DNA of 64,000 nt, from positions 2,273,001 to 2,337,000 of the forward strand of contig NZ_OY776414.1 in assembly GCF_963675585.1 (NCBI RefSeq), read 5' to 3'. Positions 47,683 to 56,539 of this stretch are shown here, piece by piece. The notes under the pieces were generated by a model. The model was not told the DNA's origin. It searched no databases and worked only from the letters and a program-made list of their open reading frames with translations. Origin of the DNA: an uncultured Draconibacterium sp. (lineage in GTDB: Bacteria > Bacteroidota > Bacteroidia > Bacteroidales > Prolixibacteraceae). Position 1 is the stretch's first letter, and every line of letters starts with the position of its first letter. Position numbers and translations under genes: made by a program.

Positions 47683-48822
47683 TTGAAAGATCACAAATTA
47701 ATTGCAAAAACATTTTCAGGATTGGAAGATGTACTTGCCAAAGAAGTAAAAAGAATAGGTGGACAAAATGTACGACGAGGAAATCGTGCTGTATTTTATG
47801 AAGGAGATTTAGAGTTAATTTATAAATCAAACTATTTTTTACGCTCTGCTCTGCGGATATTAAAAGAAGTTGAACATTTCCAGTTTAAAAATGTCGATCA
47901 ATTTTACTTAAAATGTAAAAATGTTAAGTGGAAAAATTATTTTGATTTAAATCAAAATTTCGTCATTAACAGCACGGTTATTAATTCACGTGAATTCAGA
48001 AATTCAATGTTTGCCTCTTTGAAAGTAAAAGATGCCATTGCCGATTATTTCCGTGACAATTTTGGAAAGCGCCCAAATGTGGATACCGAAAATCCGGATA
48101 TTATTATAAACGTGCATATTTTTCAGGACAATTGCACATTATCCATTGACTCAAGCGGTGAATCGTTGCACAAAAGAGGCTACCGGGTAAAACAGGGTGA
48201 AGCGCCATTAAACGAAGTTTTAGCAGCAGGCATGATAATGCTGGCCGGCTGGTATGGAAATTCAGACTTTTTAGATCCGATGTGCGGATCGGGCACATTG
48301 GCTATTGAAGCAGCTATGATTGCCCAAAACATCCCGCCTGCAAAATTTAGAAAAGAATTCGCCTTTCAACTTTGGAACGATTACGATCAGCTTCTTTGGG
48401 ATAAAATAACGGAACAAAAAGAGAAAAGGGAATTCAGACATACAATTTACGCTTCTGATATTTCGGGAAGTAATTTATTAAATGCCCAAACCAATGCACG
48501 ACGAGCATTGGTATTTAATAAAATTAAATTCCAGGTATCTGATTTTAATGATTTGGATTTGAACTTAAAGAATGCAACAATTATTACAAATCCGCCTTAT
48601 GGAGAACGATTAAAAGAAGAGAATCTGAACGGATTGTATGAAATGATTGGAGAACGTTTTAAACATCAATACCATGGCAACACTGCCTGGGTATTAACTT
48701 CATCGATGGAAAGCTTAAAATACGTAGGATTAAAGCCGGCTGAGAAATTAGATCTGTTTAACGGAGCATTAAAATGTAAATACAATAAATACGAACTTTT
48801 TAGTGGTAAAAAGCGGGAATAA
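47683..48822 (+). CDS. THUMP/SAM-dependent RNA methyltransferase, RlmL/YpsC-like
   Basis: 379 residues. Start is a TTG at 47683; this gives the family's usual N-terminus (KLIAKTFSGLEDVLAKEV) and no ATG is nearby, so the TTG is preferred. THUMP domain (about 55-155), then a Rossmann methyltransferase with motif DPMCGSGTLAIEAA and NPPYGERL (catalytic NPPY), as in 23S rRNA guanine or adenine methyltransferases. Follows cysE by 17 bases. The methylated base is not told by the sequence. Confidence 0.92.
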   Translation: MKDHKLIAKTFSGLEDVLAKEVKRIGGQNVRRGNRAVFYEGDLELIYKSNYFLRSALRILKEVEHFQFKNVDQFYLKCKNVKWKNYFDLNQNFVINSTVINSREFRNSMFASLKVKDAIADYFRDNFGKRPNVDTENPDIIINVHIFQDNCTLSIDSSGESLHKRGYRVKQGEAPLNEVLAAGMIMLAGWYGNSDFLDPMCGSGTLAIEAAMIAQNIPPAKFRKEFAFQLWNDYDQLLWDKITEQKEKREFRHTIYASDISGSNLLNAQTNARRALVFNKIKFQVSDFNDLDLNLKNATIITNPPYGERLKEENLNGLYEMIGERFKHQYHGNTAWVLTSSMESLKYVGLKPAEKLDLFNGALKCKYNKYELFSGKKRE

Positions 48823-48924
48823 CATCCCCTTTAAAAAACCAAAAGGGAATTAAAACGCGTCCCGCTTTAACCCCCTGTACTAACAACTTAATTGGTTCTG
48901 TATATAGGATATCTTTAATCTACT

Positions 48925-49059
48925 TTATTCTTCTTCAAAATCATAAACGTCTTTATCTCGTGATCTTGGTGGTTCCACTCCACCACGAATTTCATTCATT
49001 TCTGTTTCTGTTAATACAGCAAAACTTAGTCTTTCTATATTGTTTTCTTGAATTTTCAT
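48925..49059 (-). CDS. Gly-Gly leader small peptide 1
   Basis: 44 residues, ATG at 49059. Leader MKIQENNIERLSFAVL then TETEMNEIRGG and the tail VEPPRSRDKDVYDFEEE. The leader has the NEMN-xx-RGG pattern that resembles precursors of modified or secreted peptides with double-glycine leaders in Bacteroidota. Third and most downstream of three tandem genes. The tail has no Cys, Ser-rich or Thr-rich core, so it does not look like a lanthipeptide. No known family; the protein would normally be missed. Confidence 0.8.
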   Translation of the reverse strand: MKIQENNIERLSFAVLTETEMNEIRGGVEPPRSRDKDVYDFEEE

Positions 49060-49087
49060 GAGATAATTTTTTTTGGGTACTTAATAC

Positions 49088-49225
49088 TTATTCTTCTTCA
49101 AAATCATAAACATCCTTGTCTCTTGATCTTGGAGGTTCTACTCCGCCACGAACCTGGTTCATTTCGTTATTACTTAAAGAAGCAGAATCGAATAAGTCAA
49201 AAATATTTTCTGTAGTAGTTTTCAT
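49088..49225 (-). CDS. Gly-Gly leader small peptide 2
   Basis: 45 residues, ATG at 49225. Leader MKTTTENIFDLFDSAS, then LSNNEMNQVRGG, then the same 17-residue tail VEPPRSRDKDVYDFEEE. Middle gene of three, 28 bases from its downstream neighbour and 29 bases from its upstream one. The leaders are diverse while the tail is identical, which argues that the tail is the functional product. Confidence 0.82.
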   Translation of the reverse strand: MKTTTENIFDLFDSASLSNNEMNQVRGGVEPPRSRDKDVYDFEEE

Positions 49226-49254
49226 TGTAGTAATTTTTCAGGTTAATGTTTTAA

Positions 49255-49404
49255 CTATTCTTCTTCAAAATCATAAACATCTTTATCTCTTGATCTTGGA
49301 GGTTCAACTCCACCACGAACCTGATTCATTTCGTTAGAAGTTAAAACATCAAAACTTAAAACTTCGAAAGTATTTTCTGCAGATTGTCCCTGTACCCTTT
49401 TCAT
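49255..49404 (-). CDS. Gly-Gly leader small peptide 3
   Basis: 49 residues, ATG at 49404, stop TAG at 49255. Leader MKRVQGQSAENTFEVLSFDV, then LTSNEMNQVRGG and VEPPRSRDKDVYDFEEE. First of the tandem set. Its start is 65 bases downstream of the shared promoter-like motif at 49470-49486 (minus direction). It is the most likely first gene of a three-cistron unit. Confidence 0.82.
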   Translation of the reverse strand: MKRVQGQSAENTFEVLSFDVLTSNEMNQVRGGVEPPRSRDKDVYDFEEE

Positions 49405-49469
49405 CGTATAATAAATTAATTCGTTAAACTTTTAATACACACATTCACCTATATATTCCGAAAACATGA

Positions 49470-49486
49470 AAAAGGTAACCCTCTAT
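49470..49486 (-). promoter_or_regulatory. 17-bp motif shared with the sigma operon
   Basis: AAAAGGTAACCCTCTAT occurs identically at 55345-55361. Read on the minus strand as ATAGAGGGTTACCTTTT it is followed about 9 bases on by TCGGAATATATA here and TCGAATAATATA there, like a -35/-10 pair for an ECF sigma factor. It lies in the divergent region between the peptides and the CHAT gene, so it could also act on the CHAT gene. Confidence 0.65.
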
Positions 49487-49491
49487 ATTTG
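49484..49491 (+). promoter_or_regulatory. candidate -7 box for the CHAT gene
   Basis: TATATTTG fits TAnnTTTG, 48 bases before the CHAT ATG, overlapping the shared 17-bp motif by three bases. No good -33 element. Possible interplay of housekeeping and ECF promoters. Confidence 0.4.
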
Positions 49492-49538
49492 AAAAAAATT
49501 AAAAAAACTTTTACATTGCTTTCGAAAATCATTACTCA

Positions 49539-52415
49539 ATGCTCAAATTTTGGAGATTAAGCGCTTTAATAATTTTGGTTTTGTCGCCACTGTTTAACTG
49601 GGGGCAAGAGCTAGACACAACTGCCTACAAAGCAAGGATTAGAGAATTATATTTTAATGGGATGGAGCTAGATCAGGAGGGTAAAAGTGTTGAGGCTTTG
49701 GATACTTTTCTATTATATTTAGATTACCGAAAAAAGATATATGGCGAAAAACATTATTTACTGGGCTCACCCTACTTAATGATTGGTATTGCTTATAAAA
49801 ATCTGGGACAGCTTGACATGGCAATGGAAAACTACAGAATGGCTGAAAAATTCTATCTCCTTAGAGAGCCAAGTAGCATTGCTCTAGCTAGGCTATACAG
49901 AAATATAGGAAATGTTTATCGAGCAAAATTGGATTACACAAACGCCTTAAATTATTTTGAACGAGCACTAAATATTTTTTTAAGTCAAAGCCCCATAGAT
50001 CCTATTGACGTTGCAGATGCTAACTATGCAATTGCAGAGATTTATTATGTTATGAATGATTTTGATAAATCAATTCAAATTTTATCAGAGAACATTACAA
50101 AAGGAGATAAGTTAAATCAGATTTACTATAATGAGCTACTTGCAATTACATACCAAAAATTAGAAGATAATGCTGAGGCTTTATTCCATTATGAAAAAAG
50201 TTTAAGTCTTGCTAAAGAATATTATGAGCCTACAGCAATTGATTTAGCAATTGTATATATGAGATATGCGGAATTTCTTTTATCCATTGGTCATTTTGAA
50301 GAATGTTTTAAAGATTTAGAAAAAGCCAAAAAGATACTAAATGAAGTACAACCATTTAGAGGGAAAGAATTATCGATGTATTATGAGATAACAGGACGTA
50401 TCTATCAGGAAGTAACAATTGAATCCCAAAACATTAAAAGGTTCAAAGCACAAAAAAAAGAGAACTTAATTAAAGCAATTGACTACTATACTAAAGGATT
50501 AAACGCATTAAGCTCTTCAAAAAACGAAATTAAAACTCCTTCAATAAGAATTGAAGATTGTCTTTCGTTTATTGATTGTTTAGCTTTATTAAAACAAATT
50601 GGCGATGCATTTTATGATTTGGCATTGATTGACAAAGTGGAACGAAGTGAATTCTATAAAACTAATCTAATCAATGCTTTGGATTATTATCAGTCTACTA
50701 GTCGCATGATGCAACAAACGCGTCGCGAAATTTCCAGTGATGAAAGTAAAATTAAGTTGGCAGAATTGGCTTATTCAACTTTTTCAAAAACCATAGAAAC
50801 CGCATACCTTGCCTTTGAAATTACCGGAGAGCAAGTATATGTTGAACTTGCCTTCAACAACTCGGAACAATTGAAAAGTAGCGCAGTCTTTGATAAATTA
50901 TCAAACGATCTGGCTCAGGAAAATAGTCTTATCCCGGATAGTTTGCTCCAATACGAAAAAAAGTTAAATGGTATTATTTCTGTCTACAACCAAAAAATAT
51001 TTGAAGAAAACAATACCGAGAATATTGACAGTGTATTGATACAAGATTACGAAAAGAAAATATTTGATGCATCAAGGGAACGTGATGAGCTAAATCGATT
51101 GCTGGAAGTTGAATACCCGGACTACTATGATCTAAAATATTCAAATTCAATGTTTTCGATATCGGATATACAAAAGAAAATGAAAAAAGACGATGTGATT
51201 TTTGAATATGTCTTTATTAATTCCGAAGCAGATCAAAAAGGAAATATTCTAAATTCTGAATTATTTACTTTTATGATCGGTAAAAACAAAAGTATCTTTC
51301 ACAAGAGTTCTATAAGTTCGGAGATTGAAATTTCGTTGGACAATTTTTATAATTTTATGTCTACCCCTAACTATATCTTTACAACAAATACTGAATCAAA
51401 ACAATTTTGTGTTTCTTCTCATAAATTATATAAGTTGCTAATCGCGCCTTTTGAAAATGAATTGCAAAATAAAAATCTTCTAATTATTCCTGATGGGAAG
51501 CTAAACTATATTTCGTTTGATGGTTTATTACAGAGTCTGCCGGACACAAGCGAGATGATCAATTTTTCACATTTGGATTATCTGATTAAAGATTACAATC
51601 TCAACTATGCAAATTCTGCAAATATTTTATTTAAAAGCACAATTAACTCCAAAAATATATCAAATTCGACATTGGCATTTGCTCCGGAATACCAGTCTGA
51701 AACATTTGAATTGTCGGATGCAAGCTACACTTTATTGCCTTTGCCTGGTGTGCAGAAGGAGGTTGACGCTATTGCCAAGTCAATCAAAACAAAAATATTT
51801 AGAGGCAAGAATGCAACGGAAGAAAATTTCAGGAAATATTGCGATCAATACGATATTTTACATTTGGCGATGCATGCCTATATAAATGATTCTTTGCCAG
51901 CCTTCTCTCGTCTCGCTTTCACACCAGAATCAAATAAAGGATCATTGTCTGAGGATGGCTGGTTGAATACAACTGATATTTACAACCTCGAACTCAATGC
52001 CAGGCTAGCGGTGCTAAGTGCATGTAATACAGGTATTGGCAGATTAAAAAAAGGCGAAGGGATGATGAGTTTGGCTCGTGGCTTCTTATATGCAGGTTGC
52101 CCGGCTGTGGTCATGTCTTTGTGGGAAGTTGAAGATGAATCGGGTACTGAGATAATGAGTACTTTTTATAGCAACCTCAAAAAAGGTAAAACAAAAGATG
52201 AAGCGTTGCGATTGGCAAAATTAGAATATTTGGAAAATTCAAATTCACGAATGGCACATCCCCACTATTGGATGAGTTTTAGATGCATCGGTGATAATTC
52301 TTCAATATATACAAGTTATGATGTGTACTTTTTTGCACTTCTTATTTTACTAATACTTGCATTTACAATTGATCAAACCATTCGTATTCAAAAAGTTCGT
52401 CACAATAAAAAATAA
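49539..52415 (+). CDS. TPR-CHAT caspase-like protein, secreted and membrane-anchored
   Basis: 958 residues. Signal peptide (about 1-23), TPR-type helical repeats (about 30-460, for example GNVYRAKLDYTNALNYFERAL), a helical linker, then a CHAT protease domain (about 590-910): HLAMHA with candidate catalytic His779, and LSACNTGIG with Cys829, followed by GEGMMSLARGFLYAG and SLWEVEDESGTE. C-terminal membrane helix (about 925-948). It is thus probably periplasmic with a membrane tail. CHAT proteins are cysteine proteases related to caspases. It is divergent from the three small peptides, which could be substrates or signals; that link is inferred. Confidence 0.9.
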   Translation: MLKFWRLSALIILVLSPLFNWGQELDTTAYKARIRELYFNGMELDQEGKSVEALDTFLLYLDYRKKIYGEKHYLLGSPYLMIGIAYKNLGQLDMAMENYRMAEKFYLLREPSSIALARLYRNIGNVYRAKLDYTNALNYFERALNIFLSQSPIDPIDVADANYAIAEIYYVMNDFDKSIQILSENITKGDKLNQIYYNELLAITYQKLEDNAEALFHYEKSLSLAKEYYEPTAIDLAIVYMRYAEFLLSIGHFEECFKDLEKAKKILNEVQPFRGKELSMYYEITGRIYQEVTIESQNIKRFKAQKKENLIKAIDYYTKGLNALSSSKNEIKTPSIRIEDCLSFIDCLALLKQIGDAFYDLALIDKVERSEFYKTNLINALDYYQSTSRMMQQTRREISSDESKIKLAELAYSTFSKTIETAYLAFEITGEQVYVELAFNNSEQLKSSAVFDKLSNDLAQENSLIPDSLLQYEKKLNGIISVYNQKIFEENNTENIDSVLIQDYEKKIFDASRERDELNRLLEVEYPDYYDLKYSNSMFSISDIQKKMKKDDVIFEYVFINSEADQKGNILNSELFTFMIGKNKSIFHKSSISSEIEISLDNFYNFMSTPNYIFTTNTESKQFCVSSHKLYKLLIAPFENELQNKNLLIIPDGKLNYISFDGLLQSLPDTSEMINFSHLDYLIKDYNLNYANSANILFKSTINSKNISNSTLAFAPEYQSETFELSDASYTLLPLPGVQKEVDAIAKSIKTKIFRGKNATEENFRKYCDQYDILHLAMHAYINDSLPAFSRLAFTPESNKGSLSEDGWLNTTDIYNLELNARLAVLSACNTGIGRLKKGEGMMSLARGFLYAGCPAVVMSLWEVEDESGTEIMSTFYSNLKKGKTKDEALRLAKLEYLENSNSRMAHPHYWMSFRCIGDNSSIYTSYDVYFFALLILLILAFTIDQTIRIQKVRHNKK

Positions 52416-52702
52416 TAATAGAAAATATTCTAACCAAATCAGATTTAGTTTTCTTTTTATGGTAACCAAACTAGCACTTGAAAAAAAGAAAGCGCACAGA
52501 TCCTAATCTAAATGTTTGAATTTTGCATTCAGAGAATTTGATGCTTGATACTAAATTTATGAGCATCTCTATTGGATATTTATTCAGCTTTTGAGAGTTA
52601 TTTATTCGGATCACATGAAATTTCAGGTGGAGTAATTTTTCGAAGTGTGTATAATCCTGCAACAATAGATGTTATAATGCGCCTTTGCCTTATCAGGCCG
52701 AT

Positions 52703-52732
52703 TCTACTCTTTGGTTTGGCCCAAAGAGTAGA
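52703..52732. repeat. 12-bp inverted repeat in GC-rich segment
   Basis: TCTACTCTTTGG at 52703-52714 and its exact reverse complement at 52721-52732, loop TTTGGC. Not followed by a T-run. Confidence 0.6.
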
Positions 52733-53150
52733 CAGAAAACCCAAGGCTGCGCCCGCTTCACTCTGAAAAGCTACGCGATGCCGGCTAAAATTCCTGAAAC
52801 TCGTCGTACCTCCTCAAACAGCAGTAATTTTTTAACGCCGACACCACTTGTTTTCCGGCTCACCGAACGAGGCCGAAGCTTCGAATAAGGTCTTTGGTTT
52901 GCCCTCCCCAGATCAGAGGATCGGCCTCTTTTGGTCTTTATGATAGCGGAAGGCAAGGATCAAAAGCAGCCTGGATTTTTCTGCTTCGTCCCGATTGAAT
53001 CAGATTGAAGGCCTGCGGCAGCAATTTTAAAATCGACTAAAGGTCAAATTGACTTTTAGTGTGCCCATGTACTTTTAATATATAAATATTCAAATCCACC
53101 TGATTTTACGTGTGAGCCATTTATTCTCCTAACAATAAAAAAAGAAAAGA

Positions 53151-53184
53151 AAAAAGGCCTGTCAAAACTGACAAGCCTTTTTTT
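53151..53184. terminator. bidirectional terminator after the anti-sigma gene
   Basis: An A/T-flanked stem AAAAAGGC(C)TGTCA paired with TGACA(A)GCCTTTTT, one mismatch, loop AAAC. It ends the minus-strand sigma/anti-sigma transcript about 50 bases after the stop. Confidence 0.8.
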
Positions 53185-53233
53185 GAATGTATGTATCTCG
53201 AATTATTTTATTTGAACGATCTTGAAGCAAGTA

Positions 53234-54739
53234 TCATTTGAATGAATACCTGAGTTTTCGCAGTATTGCTTTGGCATCCTTTTCATAATGCCCTTTCCGA
53301 TCAATTACAGCAAGTAACTCTTGTTTTGCTTCAGCTTTCTCATTCATTTTGAGGTAGCATAACGATTTATACCATTCCGCCTCTTCAATATATAAGTTAT
53401 TCCCGTGATTGATTACTTTGGAATAAGCTTGAATTGCTTCAGTAAAGTTAGCCATATTTTGATAACTAAGTCCTTTATAGAAATCAGAAACAAAAGCTTC
53501 ATTTTGGGTAACTTCCGTATTATTTAAAACTTCTATTACTTTTTGGAATTCTTCGGCCTGGAAATAAACTTTTGCGGTTTGTATGTTATCCATAGCACTG
53601 CTCACAGAACGTTCTGAAGCCCATGTTGGAGATGCAAAATATTTATTGTAGGTATTTTCAGTCGATTGCATTCCGGTATTCAAAATACCTGCCAATCCGA
53701 TCAGCACAATAATCATTGCCGCTGAATTTCGCCACATACGACTTGATCGCTTACTAAACTTAGGTAGAACAAATGATTTTACTTCTGTTTTATCTGCTTC
53801 CGCACGTGCAGCATTTAATTGTGCTCTTAATGAATGTATATCCGTTTCCGCTATGGCATGGTTAATGTGCTCACGTAAAGCCACTTCCGCCATAAGGTCT
53901 GTATTTTCTTTCAATTCAGCGTTAAATTCTTCCAGTAAATCTTCTTCAAGAATTCCATCGATGAAGTCTTCAATGCTCTTTTCGCTCACATTCCAGGATG
54001 TTTCTGCTTCCATTATGTTGCGAAGCTCACTTCTCAAATCCATCACTTCAGTTTCTGCAAGTGCCGATTCAAGTTCCATGTGTAAATCAAGCTCTTCCTG
54101 CAAATCTAAGTTTTGATCTAATTCAGCTTCAAATTCCGCTAGAATATCATCATCCATTTCACCATTCATGAAATTATCGATGTCTTCAACAGAAAACTGC
54201 GGTTCCATAGACTTAGAAACATGCTGAAGCGTTTCTCTGAGATTGAGAATATCTAACTCCAGAACGGCTTCTTCCAAACCTTCTAATCCTTCCATGTCGA
54301 AGCCATTTAGGTCTTCTTCATGTCCATTATTTACATCACTACTGGTTTGTTCTTTGTAATAATGGTGAATGTTTTCATTTGATGTCCGTTCGTGTTGATA
54401 AACGTGTACTTTGGGTAGAGATTCTAAACTTTTAATAAGTTCTTCCGGGGCTAACTCGTCGTTTACTTCCTGAATAAGGGCTAATTCATCGAGTAATTCA
54501 AAAGATCCATTGATAGAACTGTTGGGTTTGTTCTCAATTTGAATGTTTTCGAGTTTTTCTTTTAAATTAAGAACATCCATTTCTGTAATTGCAGCTTGAA
54601 TGTTTTTATGAAGTTCTACTTCATCTCTTAATTCTTCGTTAAACTCTAATTCATTTTCAAATTCTAATTTTTCTTGAGCGTCCAATAACTCTAAACAATA
54701 ATCTTCAATGCGTCCAAATAATTCTGCTTTAGGTGTCAT
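53234..54739 (-). CDS. anti-sigma-like protein with repeated domains, membrane helix and TPRs
   Basis: 501 residues from the ATG at 54739 (an upstream TTG is less likely). Three clear repeats of about 60 residues: 8-66, 183-242 and 254-312, each like IEDF-G-LEEDLLEEFNAEL with acidic helices and an ending LRxxL; a degenerate fourth lies between 83 and 174. Such repeats resemble anti-sigma domains. One membrane helix (340-356, AAMIIVLIGLAGIL) is followed by TPR-like repeats in the periplasm (360-501). The ORF overlaps the sigma gene by 11 bases, so it is its likely antagonist. Not a known named family. Confidence 0.75.
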   Translation of the reverse strand: MTPKAELFGRIEDYCLELLDAQEKLEFENELEFNEELRDEVELHKNIQAAITEMDVLNLKEKLENIQIENKPNSSINGSFELLDELALIQEVNDELAPEELIKSLESLPKVHVYQHERTSNENIHHYYKEQTSSDVNNGHEEDLNGFDMEGLEGLEEAVLELDILNLRETLQHVSKSMEPQFSVEDIDNFMNGEMDDDILAEFEAELDQNLDLQEELDLHMELESALAETEVMDLRSELRNIMEAETSWNVSEKSIEDFIDGILEEDLLEEFNAELKENTDLMAEVALREHINHAIAETDIHSLRAQLNAARAEADKTEVKSFVLPKFSKRSSRMWRNSAAMIIVLIGLAGILNTGMQSTENTYNKYFASPTWASERSVSSAMDNIQTAKVYFQAEEFQKVIEVLNNTEVTQNEAFVSDFYKGLSYQNMANFTEAIQAYSKVINHGNNLYIEEAEWYKSLCYLKMNEKAEAKQELLAVIDRKGHYEKDAKAILRKLRYSFK

Positions 54740-55316
54740 CTTCAAGTATCTTTTTAAATTCTGTATCTTGTTTTATACGCTTAATAAGAAGTTCTTTACA
54801 CTTATATTTTCGGGTTTTTGCGTATTTCTCTGTTTTAAAGCCCATTATTTTTGCTATGTCCTTAAGCGGGACTTTTTCAAAAAACAGTTGTAATAACTTC
54901 TGACAATCAGTACTTAAGGTTTTAAAGTGCTTCTGATATAATCCGTATTTTTCATTTTTTTCTACCAGATCGACTAAATTATCGTCGTATAAGTCTTCCT
55001 GGAACGGCAATGAATCGTTCAGCCTTTCTCTTTCTATTCGCCTTTTCTCGAGTTGTTTCAACCACAAGAACCGACAAACGGAAAATAAATAACCTTGAAA
55101 AGAACTCTTTTCGAAAATTAAATCGTTTTCTTTTAATTTTCTATAAATTACGATTATAGCTTCCTGAAAAATGTCGCTGGCATCATCTTCACTTCCTTGG
55201 TTTTTCTTAATGAAATAATTTACTTTATAGTAGTACTGTTTATAGATGTACTGTAAAATTAAATTATCATGCCTTAAGATTCCTTTCAGGATTTGCGCAT
55301 CCGTATAATTTATCAT
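54729..55316 (-). CDS. ECF-type RNA polymerase sigma factor
   Basis: 195 residues. Region 2 with DDASDIFQEAIIVIYRKLKE (about 45-75) and region 4 with LLQLFFEKVPLKDIAKIMGF then KTEKYAKTRKYKCKELL (about 130-185). It is followed by an overlapping anti-sigma gene. The 17-bp motif at 55345-55361 lies 29 bases upstream of its ATG, and an identical copy precedes the peptide genes. It therefore probably activates itself and the peptides. A promoter this close would give a very short or leaderless mRNA. Confidence 0.9.
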   Translation of the reverse strand: MINYTDAQILKGILRHDNLILQYIYKQYYYKVNYFIKKNQGSEDDASDIFQEAIIVIYRKLKENDLIFEKSSFQGYLFSVCRFLWLKQLEKRRIERERLNDSLPFQEDLYDDNLVDLVEKNEKYGLYQKHFKTLSTDCQKLLQLFFEKVPLKDIAKIMGFKTEKYAKTRKYKCKELLIKRIKQDTEFKKILEDDT

Positions 55317-55344
55317 CTTCTATTATATTATTCGATTATCGGGC

Positions 55345-55361
55345 AAAAGGTAACCCTCTAT
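55345..55361 (-). promoter_or_regulatory. 17-bp motif upstream of the sigma operon
   Basis: Identical to 49470-49486. In the minus direction: ATAGAGGGTTACC then, after about 18 bases, AATAATATA. Best read as the autoregulated promoter of the ECF sigma gene, but an operator is not excluded. Confidence 0.65.
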
Positions 55362-55515
55362 TTAAAACAATTCTATCACAACTTATAAAACAATCTTTGT
55401 TAAAAACGGCAACAAGGCTAATAAACAACGTTTTACAAGAGTTGTTAAAGTTAAAAATTAAATTAAAAAAAGGACAAAAAAGATTTGAAAATATATTGAT
55501 TAGCCCTTTAAAACA

Positions 55516-55545
55516 AAAAGGACAGGTTCAACAACCTATCCTTTT
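55516..55545 (-). terminator. terminator for the TonB-like gene
   Basis: AAAAGGACAGGTT at 55516-55528 pairs with 55533-55545, one mismatch, loop CAAC; the minus-strand side ends in CCTTTTTGTTTT. It lies 220 bases past the stop of the gene at 55769. Confidence 0.6.
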
Positions 55546-55768
55546 CTCATTAAACTAACTAACCTAACTAAACCTAAACTTATGAAAATAAACGTACCAC
55601 AAAGATAATGGCATCTGTATTATGCGACAAAAAAAAGGTGTTAAATCATGTTAAAGCAACAATACAATTAACACTGGCTATATTTATTACAAACAACAGA
55701 TTATGTGGCACTTATGACAATCTAACATTAAATAACAAATCAAATTTTATGTTAAAAAATGTGGCCTT

Positions 55769-56539
55769 TTATTGTGCTACAAAGGTATATTGTATGCTGC
55801 CTTTTTGAGAAGCCGGGGCATTTGGGCCTGAATTGAACACAGTTCTGGAAGCTGCTTCCTGTGCATACAAAAGTATTTGTTTATCGCGAATAGAATTATT
55901 TTGCCTGGCAACCGCTTCTGTCACTTTCCCGGCCTGATTAACTTTTATATCAACTGTAACTGTTCCTCCTCCCTGAGCCAGGTAAACCGGAACAGGTAAG
56001 CTTAAATGATAGCGATTTTCGAGAAAATATATTATGTTGCTTTCACCTGTATAAATAATATTTTTAATTGAGTCAGGATCCATACCTTCGGTTGTTTCAA
56101 CAGGCATCTTTATATCGCTAAGATCCACAATTTCTTTCGAAAGTTGGTTGTTAACATCTGACACCAGTTTTTGTGCTGCTTCTAATTCCTTTACATATTC
56201 ATCGTCAAAAAACTCATCAGCCGATTTTGTGGTATTCTCCGTTGCACTTTGATTTGAAGCAATATTACTTCGATTATTGTAGTTTTCTTTGTCTGTTCTT
56301 ACTTCCGTTTTTTCTTCCAAACTTTCTTCTTCAACTTCCGGGTCCTGTATTATATCCGGAAACTCAATCAAAATGGCCTCTTCTTTTACATTCCCTTTAA
56401 TATCTACATCGCTTAACAGAAATGCACCAAAAAGTAAAATATGAAACACCAGCGTCCCCATAACGCCGTATATATTTTGCCGGTATATTTTGATGAATTT
56501 TTGCACCAAACAAAAATAGAAAATTAAGTTTGATATCAT
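55769..56539 (-). CDS. TonB-family energy transducer-like protein
   Basis: 256 residues from the ATG at 56539; the longer frame to 56665 crosses a terminator and is rejected. One N-terminal membrane helix (about 25-47, GVMGTLVFHILLFGAFLL), an acidic/Glu-rich linker in place of the usual Pro-rich one, and a C-terminal TonB-like domain with GGGTVTVDIKVNQAGKVTEA and RTVFNSGPNAP. It may energise outer-membrane receptors such as the SusC of this window. No ExbB/ExbD genes nearby. Confidence 0.75.
   Translation of the reverse strand: MISNLIFYFCLVQKFIKIYRQNIYGVMGTLVFHILLFGAFLLSDVDIKGNVKEEAILIEFPDIIQDPEVEEESLEEKTEVRTDKENYNNRSNIASNQSATENTTKSADEFFDDEYVKELEAAQKLVSDVNNQLSKEIVDLSDIKMPVETTEGMDPDSIKNIIYTGESNIIYFLENRYHLSLPVPVYLAQGGGTVTVDIKVNQAGKVTEAVARQNNSIRDKQILLYAQEAASRTVFNSGPNAPASQKGSIQYTFVAQ

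Follow-up and report, generated by a model that had tools for sequence, protein, structure and literature searches.

Why does this locus carry three small genes that begin differently and end in exactly the same peptide, and what might that peptide act on? The window, the 64-kb stretch of DNA that we analysed, holds the three genes in tandem on its minus strand:

49255..49404, minus strand: GG-leader precursor A, 49 aa, tail at 49258-49308
49088..49225, minus strand: GG-leader precursor B, 45 aa, tail at 49091-49141
48925..49059, minus strand: GG-leader precursor C, 44 aa, tail at 48928-48978

The original prediction described three minus-strand ORFs with differing double-glycine (GG) leaders and an identical 17-residue tail, and we confirmed this: VEPPRSRDKDVYDFEEE is the common C-terminal tail, preceded by the leaders VLTSNEMNQVRGG, SLSNNEMNQVRGG and VLTETEMNEIRGG. 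Compared by eye, the tail DNA of the three precursors has synonymous codon differences only (3, 4 and 6 codons per pair). In the 6.03-Mb, 4-contig genome precursor A strongly matches just these three ORFs, the next-best match (E = 0.07) lying within a long frame. The prediction had also proposed a search for intact homologues in related genomes. With precursor A alone as the query, these were found at E <= 0.01 in 29 of 37 genomes of the GTDB genus, its own included, and in none of 24 genomes from other families of the order. Many of the genus loci have two or three intact tandem copies which, with the genus-wide homologues, indicates a conserved coding family well beyond chance.

The double-glycine reading of the leaders is supported. 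LSxxELxxIxGG is the consensus of GG leaders exported by C39-ABC transporters, and the precursors have a leader of this kind ahead of a short tail. Matches to curated leader models were sub-threshold, none of the models attaining its own cut-off on the precursors, and assignment as a TIGR04149 rSAM-modified or class I lanthipeptide precursor was rejected at best scores of 14.3 and 13.2 bits against cut-offs of 25 and 22. A class-level profile search with the peptide alone matched 19 of 395 genomes (own included) at E <= 0.1; these were mostly general GG leaders or chance, and the search yielded L102-L104.

Next to the precursors lie three larger genes. The original prediction had suggested looking for co-occurrence with CHAT genes, which is borne out, and missed the ECF sigma/anti-sigma pair and a promoter motif common to the peptide and sigma genes:

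49539..52415, plus strand: TPR-CHAT protease, 958 aa (CHAT profile 209.9 bits, cut-off 24)
53234..54745, minus strand: anti-sigma-like protein, 503 aa (NF052375 anti-sigma, 9.1e-7, 29.1 bits, under the cut-off of 100)
54729..55316, minus strand: ECF sigma factor, 195 aa (TIGR02937 51.5 bits, cut-off 42.9; PF04542 25.4, cut-off 24)

The CHAT protein has both the profile score and the catalytic His and Cys of a CHAT peptidase, with H775/H779 and C829 invariant across 62 sequences, and the sigma factor exceeds its sigma70-ECF profile cut-offs. By hydropathy only, the CHAT protein carries a hydrophobic signal at its N-terminus and a TM segment at its C-terminus. The anti-sigma-like protein appears to have N-terminal helical units, seemingly repeated by eye, then one TM segment, again placed by hydropathy only, and a C-terminal TPR region; its structure model was of low confidence (pLDDT 67.5, pTM 0.33) and too poor for use. 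With these topologies, the two proteins could meet in the periplasm. PADLOC gave no match for the CHAT, sigma or anti-sigma proteins and an anti-phage defence role was set aside, although absence there is weak evidence.

The arrangement is conserved. We fetched 15 genus loci over 12.6-16.5 kb, and in 14 of them rlmL is followed by the GG precursor(s), a divergent TPR-CHAT gene, and the anti-sigma and ECF sigma genes convergent to it. At the fifteenth, L046, the contig stops about 2.9 kb beyond the peptide, and the rlmL, CHAT, anti-sigma and sigma ORFs were unrecovered. Identity to the window was 84-98% for sigma across the 14 loci and 45-70% for CHAT in the 12 with an unsplit frame; in metagenome contigs of two genomes (L045/L157 in G035, L049/L111 in G027) the CHAT frame is split into two ORFs, either by a frameshift or by an assembly error. 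The sigma factor was present in 98 of 140 family genomes (E <= 1e-30), spanning 19 of 23 genera. Among 20 other-genus loci centred on sigma, a GG precursor with a quite different tail lies beside CHAT in eight (L082, L091, L093, L094, L096, L097, L099 and L100), CHAT is at the edge of the fetched DNA in five (L083, L084, L085, L095 and L101), and sigma is without CHAT within the DNA examined in seven (L086-L090, L092 and L098).

We also collected at least 80 named TPR-CHAT loci by CHAT similarity. Among the matches listed, the nearest full-length CHAT was that of Draconibacterium aestuarii (70%; family Prolixibacteraceae), and the genera included Draconibacterium, Maribellus, Mariniphaga, Sunxiuqinia, Mangrovibacterium, Prolixibacter, Tangfeifania and Marinifilum. 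A divergent GG ORF lay no more than 1.3 kb from the CHAT start at 54 of the 57 listed TPR-CHAT loci that had a CHAT ORF and at least 800 bp upstream (L161 and L173 have no CHAT ORF), and beside 3 of 380 other genes of the same loci; these counts are not independent of the module, since the survey profile A2 was seeded through peptide and sigma (from the window, the peptide-found L040, L103 and L104, and eight sigma-found loci). Two of the three misses, L183 and L184, truly lack the ORF, while at L151 a GG ORF does adjoin the matched CHAT. Where both flanks were available (46 of the matches listed), sigma was present at 43 loci, anti-sigma at all 46, and sigma and peptide together at 40. As judged from gene order and sequence similarity, the module thus consists of one or more GG precursors, a divergent TPR-CHAT protease, a single-TM anti-sigma with TPRs and an ECF sigma factor, in Prolixibacteraceae and other Bacteroidales.

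Beyond these groups the cascade is found without an adjoining peptide. No GG ORF was nearby at sigma/anti-sigma/CHAT loci of other groups (L270, L271), and in 29 phylum-level CHAT loci (L187-L215) there were three GG regex matches, all judged by eye to be chance; the low number is partly explained by eight of these loci having just 190-440 bp upstream of CHAT. The peptide is therefore not obligatory for the cascade, and looks like an input added in one lineage.

The original prediction noted that no ABC transporter is adjacent. The exporter is indeed unlinked here, but the genome does have a C39-ABC transporter elsewhere and some relatives have one near the peptide. Of two Peptidase_C39 matches in the genome, one is an ABC transporter that lies 0.67 Mb away and has an HlyD partner, and relatives of this transporter (E <= 1e-100) were found in 23 of 25 same-genus genomes searched, its own included, 16 at 85% identity or more and 7 at 62-64%. 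At L102 the exporter adjoins the precursor, and at L103 and L104, from another family, a single run holds sigma, anti-sigma, CHAT, a small HTH gene, the GG precursor and C39-ABC. At L152, L158 and L174 a same-strand run begins with the precursor and continues through TPR/anti-sigma-like, kinase-like, LytTR, C39-ABC and HlyD genes, with small ORFs interspersed; Pfam identified LytTR in all three and HisKA in L158 and L174, the two scanned.

Two further observations concern these loci. The small protein between CHAT and the GG precursor at L103:5202-5630 and L104:8668-9084 (family f90) has Cys pairs, zinc-ribbon-like by eye, and an HTH_23 match in L104, the one scanned. In another family of the class, L070 and L105 (G161:C1 near 282300-282900) have three near-identical GG precursors with the tail DEEPLPEPYPSKGNGGNGST, a C39-ABC exporter a few kb off, and CHAT/sigma/anti-sigma genes 15-20 kb away (L270).

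The tail was proposed in the original prediction to be the functional unit, and the likeness of tails within genomes supports this. The 17-mer itself is not what is conserved: tails vary from species to species (as in GTPKSRDKDIFDFEEE and VEPPKSRDKDIFDFEEE, from two species) and are barely recognisable across genera. The prediction had held that a freely diverging tail would count against it. Across genera this is half the case, but within a genome the copies diverge in concert, and the divergence follows the TPR region of CHAT. What is kept is the likeness among the copies of one genome, together with an acidic character.

We compared the 44 precursors captured from 15 genus genomes with two or three each, ranking the copies A, B and C in the order of their genes; L014 has a third copy outside this set. 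The leaders mostly group by gene order across species, whereas the tails group by genome, all tail copies being equal in 7 of the 15 genomes and varying by few residues in the others. Tail identity was 96% within genomes (26 of 43 pairs exact) and 75% between genomes for copies of the same rank (3 of 298 pairs exact, the pair L009-L010 left out), while the leaders showed the reverse, 46% within genomes and 68% between. Synonymous differences in the tails were at least as frequent within genomes (0.215) as between genomes (0.179). With L010 dropped, a Phe/Tyr site in the tail agreed in 40 of 40 within-genome pairs and in 144 of 260 between genomes, yet the codon at this site was identical in just 18 of the 40; on the same set, 10,000 shuffles never gave more than nine identical tail pairs, where 25 of 40 were observed. 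As the likeness is at the protein level and change is concerted while codons do not match, it is selection rather than gene conversion that appears to keep the tails alike. On these comparisons paralogous tails are near-identical in each genome, change together between species and are maintained by selection. The best explanation for this pattern would be that the three genes encode one mature peptide.

The wider collection gave a similar picture. Among the CHAT loci matches listed, all copies were equal at 4 of 12 multi-precursor loci; L123, L155 and L165 have different leaders on identical tails and at L142 one precursor carries its tail twice, while L138, L157 and L175 are exceptions, with copies whose tails are clearly unlike. 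For 62 tails among the matches listed, taking one per locus from the precursor nearest CHAT, net charge was negative in 58, neutral in 4 and positive in none (mean -3.3), and the leaders were neutral on average; L118 was dropped, as its contig is truncated and the GG match there runs into the CHAT region. The 62 tails have lengths of 10-27 aa, and 61 of them have no Cys. An acidic-hydrophobic pattern, written after the tails had been seen, fitted 47 of 62 (mean of shuffles 23, maximum 34).

If the tail is a ligand, the TPR region of the CHAT protein is a candidate receptor. This region is the faster-changing part of the protein (mean identity to the window 29%, against 50% for the protease domain). 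Across 48 dereplicated loci among the matches listed, taken by the same rules (nearest precursor, L118 dropped), a partial Mantel test gave r = 0.44 (p 0.0005) between tail and TPR, given protease domain and sigma, and 0.008 between tail and protease domain; the leader gave 0.11 with TPR (p 0.04) and 0.33 with the protease domain. Tail distance also varies with that of sigma (0.27) and, weakly, with that of the helical region (0.14). As these statistics ignore the tree, the contrast between tail and leader carries more weight than the p-values. In these alignments tail divergence follows the CHAT TPR domain and not the protease domain, and leader divergence does so weakly, a pattern that looks like coevolution of ligand and receptor, recorded in the two or three paralogues of each genome.

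The predicted CHAT structure (pLDDT 84.6, pTM 0.78) is nearest to the TPR-CHAT protein of Craspase (7xsr_C, E 2.8e-14) and then to separases; the transmembrane anti-sigma DdvA is likewise among its top structural matches. Profile matches to CHAT (152 sequences) include kinesin light chain and the RRNPP receptor NprR, which have peptide-binding TPR domains, among many other TPR proteins; as TPR profiles match many such proteins, this resemblance is a lead only. RRNPP receptors are cytosolic. The TPR groove of kinesin light chain takes Y-acidic and W-acidic peptides, according to the part of the source available (PMC6214655), and tails such as KDVYDFEEE and DDDLWPP offer a suggestive parallel by analogy.

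The peptide and sigma genes also appear to share a promoter:

49454..49480, minus strand: promoter-like motif GGTTACCTTTT-N11-GAATA, 49 bp ahead of the precursor A ATG, 0 mismatches
55329..55355, minus strand: promoter-like motif of the same type, 12 bp ahead of the sigma ATG, 1 mismatch, exact under N{5,12}

With up to three mismatches allowed, GGTTACCTTTT-N-GAATA occurs in the 64-kb window solely before precursor A and the sigma gene (0.29 sites expected; two or more in 4 of 100 shuffles). The whole genome has five exact sites, two of them at this locus, and the reversed control none. Eight further chosen genomes had 21 sites, again with a reversed control of zero; the peptide site was present in all eight and the sigma site in seven, and G003, G004, G020 and G029 have these two sites only. 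Among the matches listed, GGGTTAC is conserved between peptide and CHAT at 43 of 57 loci, and the strict form, GGTTACC-N13-17-GAATA, was found ahead of 30 of 60 peptide genes and of 16 of 64 sigma ORFs, so that it is missing at half and three quarters of those counted, and ahead of none of 69 CHAT, 72 anti-sigma and 590 other genes. Allowing one mismatch per half, the counts among these matches became 48 of 60, 26 of 64, 3 of 69, 0 of 72 and 25 of 590. The simplest reading of these sites, we infer, is that the sigma factor recognises the motif.

The other sites suggest a very small regulon. None of the five exact sites is at the exporter. The site at C4:3267925 precedes a ~124-aa family without a Pfam match, possibly an output of sigma; the strict motif was found at 3 of 25 loci of its homologues and a relaxed form at 10 of 25, some of these probably by chance. 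At G000:C4:3268085-3269227 (L223, L245), downstream of the motif, two copies of this family flank a 65-aa ORF; the family also lies downstream of the motif in G013 and G034. The site at C1:539659 precedes a 202-aa lipoprotein-like ORF, and its recurrence was not seen. The fifth site, G000:C3:8741 (L217, L222), recurs as an exact copy at the same place in G031:C1:864131 (L225) and G034:C1:671657 (L230), and in each genome it precedes a conserved stretch of ~110-130 nt without a shared ORF, ending in an inverted repeat and a T run (folding z-scores -2.0 to -2.4) and facing a convergent gene that we take to be argS. We consider the stretch a candidate sigma-dependent small RNA. Across 48800-55900 of the window there was no Rfam match at the gathering threshold.

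We lean towards a model in which the peptide, once exported, binds the TPR-CHAT protease as its ligand, this protease cleaves the anti-sigma, and sigma then drives its own gene and the peptide in positive feedback. The C39-ABC exporter would cut after the GG and export the acidic peptide, which would occupy the TPR groove of the envelope-anchored CHAT much as acidic-aromatic peptides do on kinesin light chain. Activated CHAT would cleave the anti-sigma, and the freed sigma would transcribe the peptide genes and a few outputs as well as its own gene, forming an autoinducer-like loop with a species-specific ligand and receptor. What we infer in this scheme is export, binding, cleavage and the direction of the effect; anti-sigma cleavage is the natural guess, given the Craspase precedent of a TPR-CHAT protein cutting a sigma inhibitor. 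Against the model, a peptide that had left through the outer membrane would need a way back into the periplasm.

The same linkage, promoter motif and tail-TPR covariation would be expected if the peptide were instead an inhibitor or decoy substrate of CHAT, giving negative feedback on a cascade whose true inducer is some envelope signal. Sigma seemingly driving its own gene and the peptide is compatible with either sign, and the cascade without a linked GG peptide in other Bacteroidota also suits this explanation. We nevertheless think it unlikely, as the several copies and the linked exporter of some relatives suggest export in quantity, and the runs with LytTR and HisKA genes resemble signalling. 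More doubtful still is that the peptide is an output, a bacteriocin-like effector or a matrix peptide that sigma has made when needed, with CHAT a stress sensor or self-protection. The scarcity of other motif sites would make the peptide a main target, and GG leaders and C39 exporters do serve bacteroidetocins (available text of PMC6671954), but the copies stay alike rather than diversify and track the TPR domain, and the tails are acidic or neutral with one containing Cys, where bacteroidetocins have four Cys and one is reported to have a net charge of +2 (same partial source). Recent duplication or gene conversion without a functional partner, to which the tandem arrangement, the two leaders of L008 that are nearly identical too, and the repeated precursor-anti-sigma pairs of four loci lend something, is very hard to credit when leaders elsewhere are distant, identical tail pairs far exceed those of the shuffles, and the mismatched codons, with concordant Phe/Tyr residues from different codons, rule out gene conversion as the cause.

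The favoured model, with the peptide as ligand, combines features of several known systems. ComC/CSP and BlpC, the Gram-positive pheromones, are likewise short peptides behind a GG leader, with C39-ABC export and positive feedback; their receptor is a histidine kinase with a LytTR regulator, whereas the proposed receptor here is a TPR-CHAT protease with an ECF sigma. Craspase (the type III-E CRISPR system CASP, with the TPR-CHAT protein Csx29, Csx30 and CASP-sigma) similarly ties a TPR-CHAT protein to an ECF sigma and its inhibitor, which Csx29 cuts (PMC10028731, in the portion available). Unlike Craspase, CHAT and anti-sigma here have TM segments and the proposed trigger is a peptide rather than target RNA; no Cas7-11, Csx30 or other Cas-like gene was seen by eye in the ORF lists of the loci. 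The membrane anti-sigma recalls RseA-DegS (same portion of PMC10028731) and RsiV-lysozyme, switches in which its proteolysis releases the ECF sigma, but the candidate first protease here is a locus-encoded CHAT peptidase with its own peptide. Bacteroidetocins are also Bacteroidota GG-leader peptides near a C39-ABC exporter, with leader removal at GG backed by mass spectrometry; they have four Cys in 42 aa and mostly a thiol oxidoreductase gene (PMC6671954, as far as available). Identity with them was rejected, given acidic tails of 10-27 aa nearly all without Cys. ECF sigma and TPR genes have been tied to caspase-domain conflict systems, in a source whose available part has no mention of 'double glycine' (PMC8195603). 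Among the papers listed from the literature searched, which omitted preprints and most subscription papers, none was seen to describe a GG peptide with a CHAT gene.

As relatives carry the same kit with different peptides, this may be an unrecognised peptide-signalling system. More broadly, and with somewhat less assurance than we attach to the model itself, we suggest a pheromone system native to Bacteroidota whose receptor is itself a protease: a species-specific acidic peptide would gate a caspase-like TPR-CHAT in the envelope, releasing an ECF sigma whose targets would be the peptide, the sigma gene itself and, in some species, a small RNA. The unmodified signal or protease ligand of the original prediction stands as the best guess. 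Peptide quorum sensing is well known in Gram-positives; we know of no established ribosomal peptide pheromone with a receptor in Bacteroidota, and, to our knowledge, few triggers of CHAT proteases outside CRISPR have been described. With a ligand, a candidate receptor protease, a sigma factor and what may be a very small regulon, all in culturable strains, the module makes both questions open to direct test.

Two variants of the precursors were also seen. In L082, L093, L126 and L169 the precursor and its anti-sigma occur twice in a row and the two precursors are identical, through either recent duplication or the assembly. The precursor at L157:9021-9218 (minus strand) and the second precursor of L035 combine a short leader and the common tail core with an additional C-terminal stretch that includes WVEWLKNWLG, perhaps a membrane-bound or antagonistic form.
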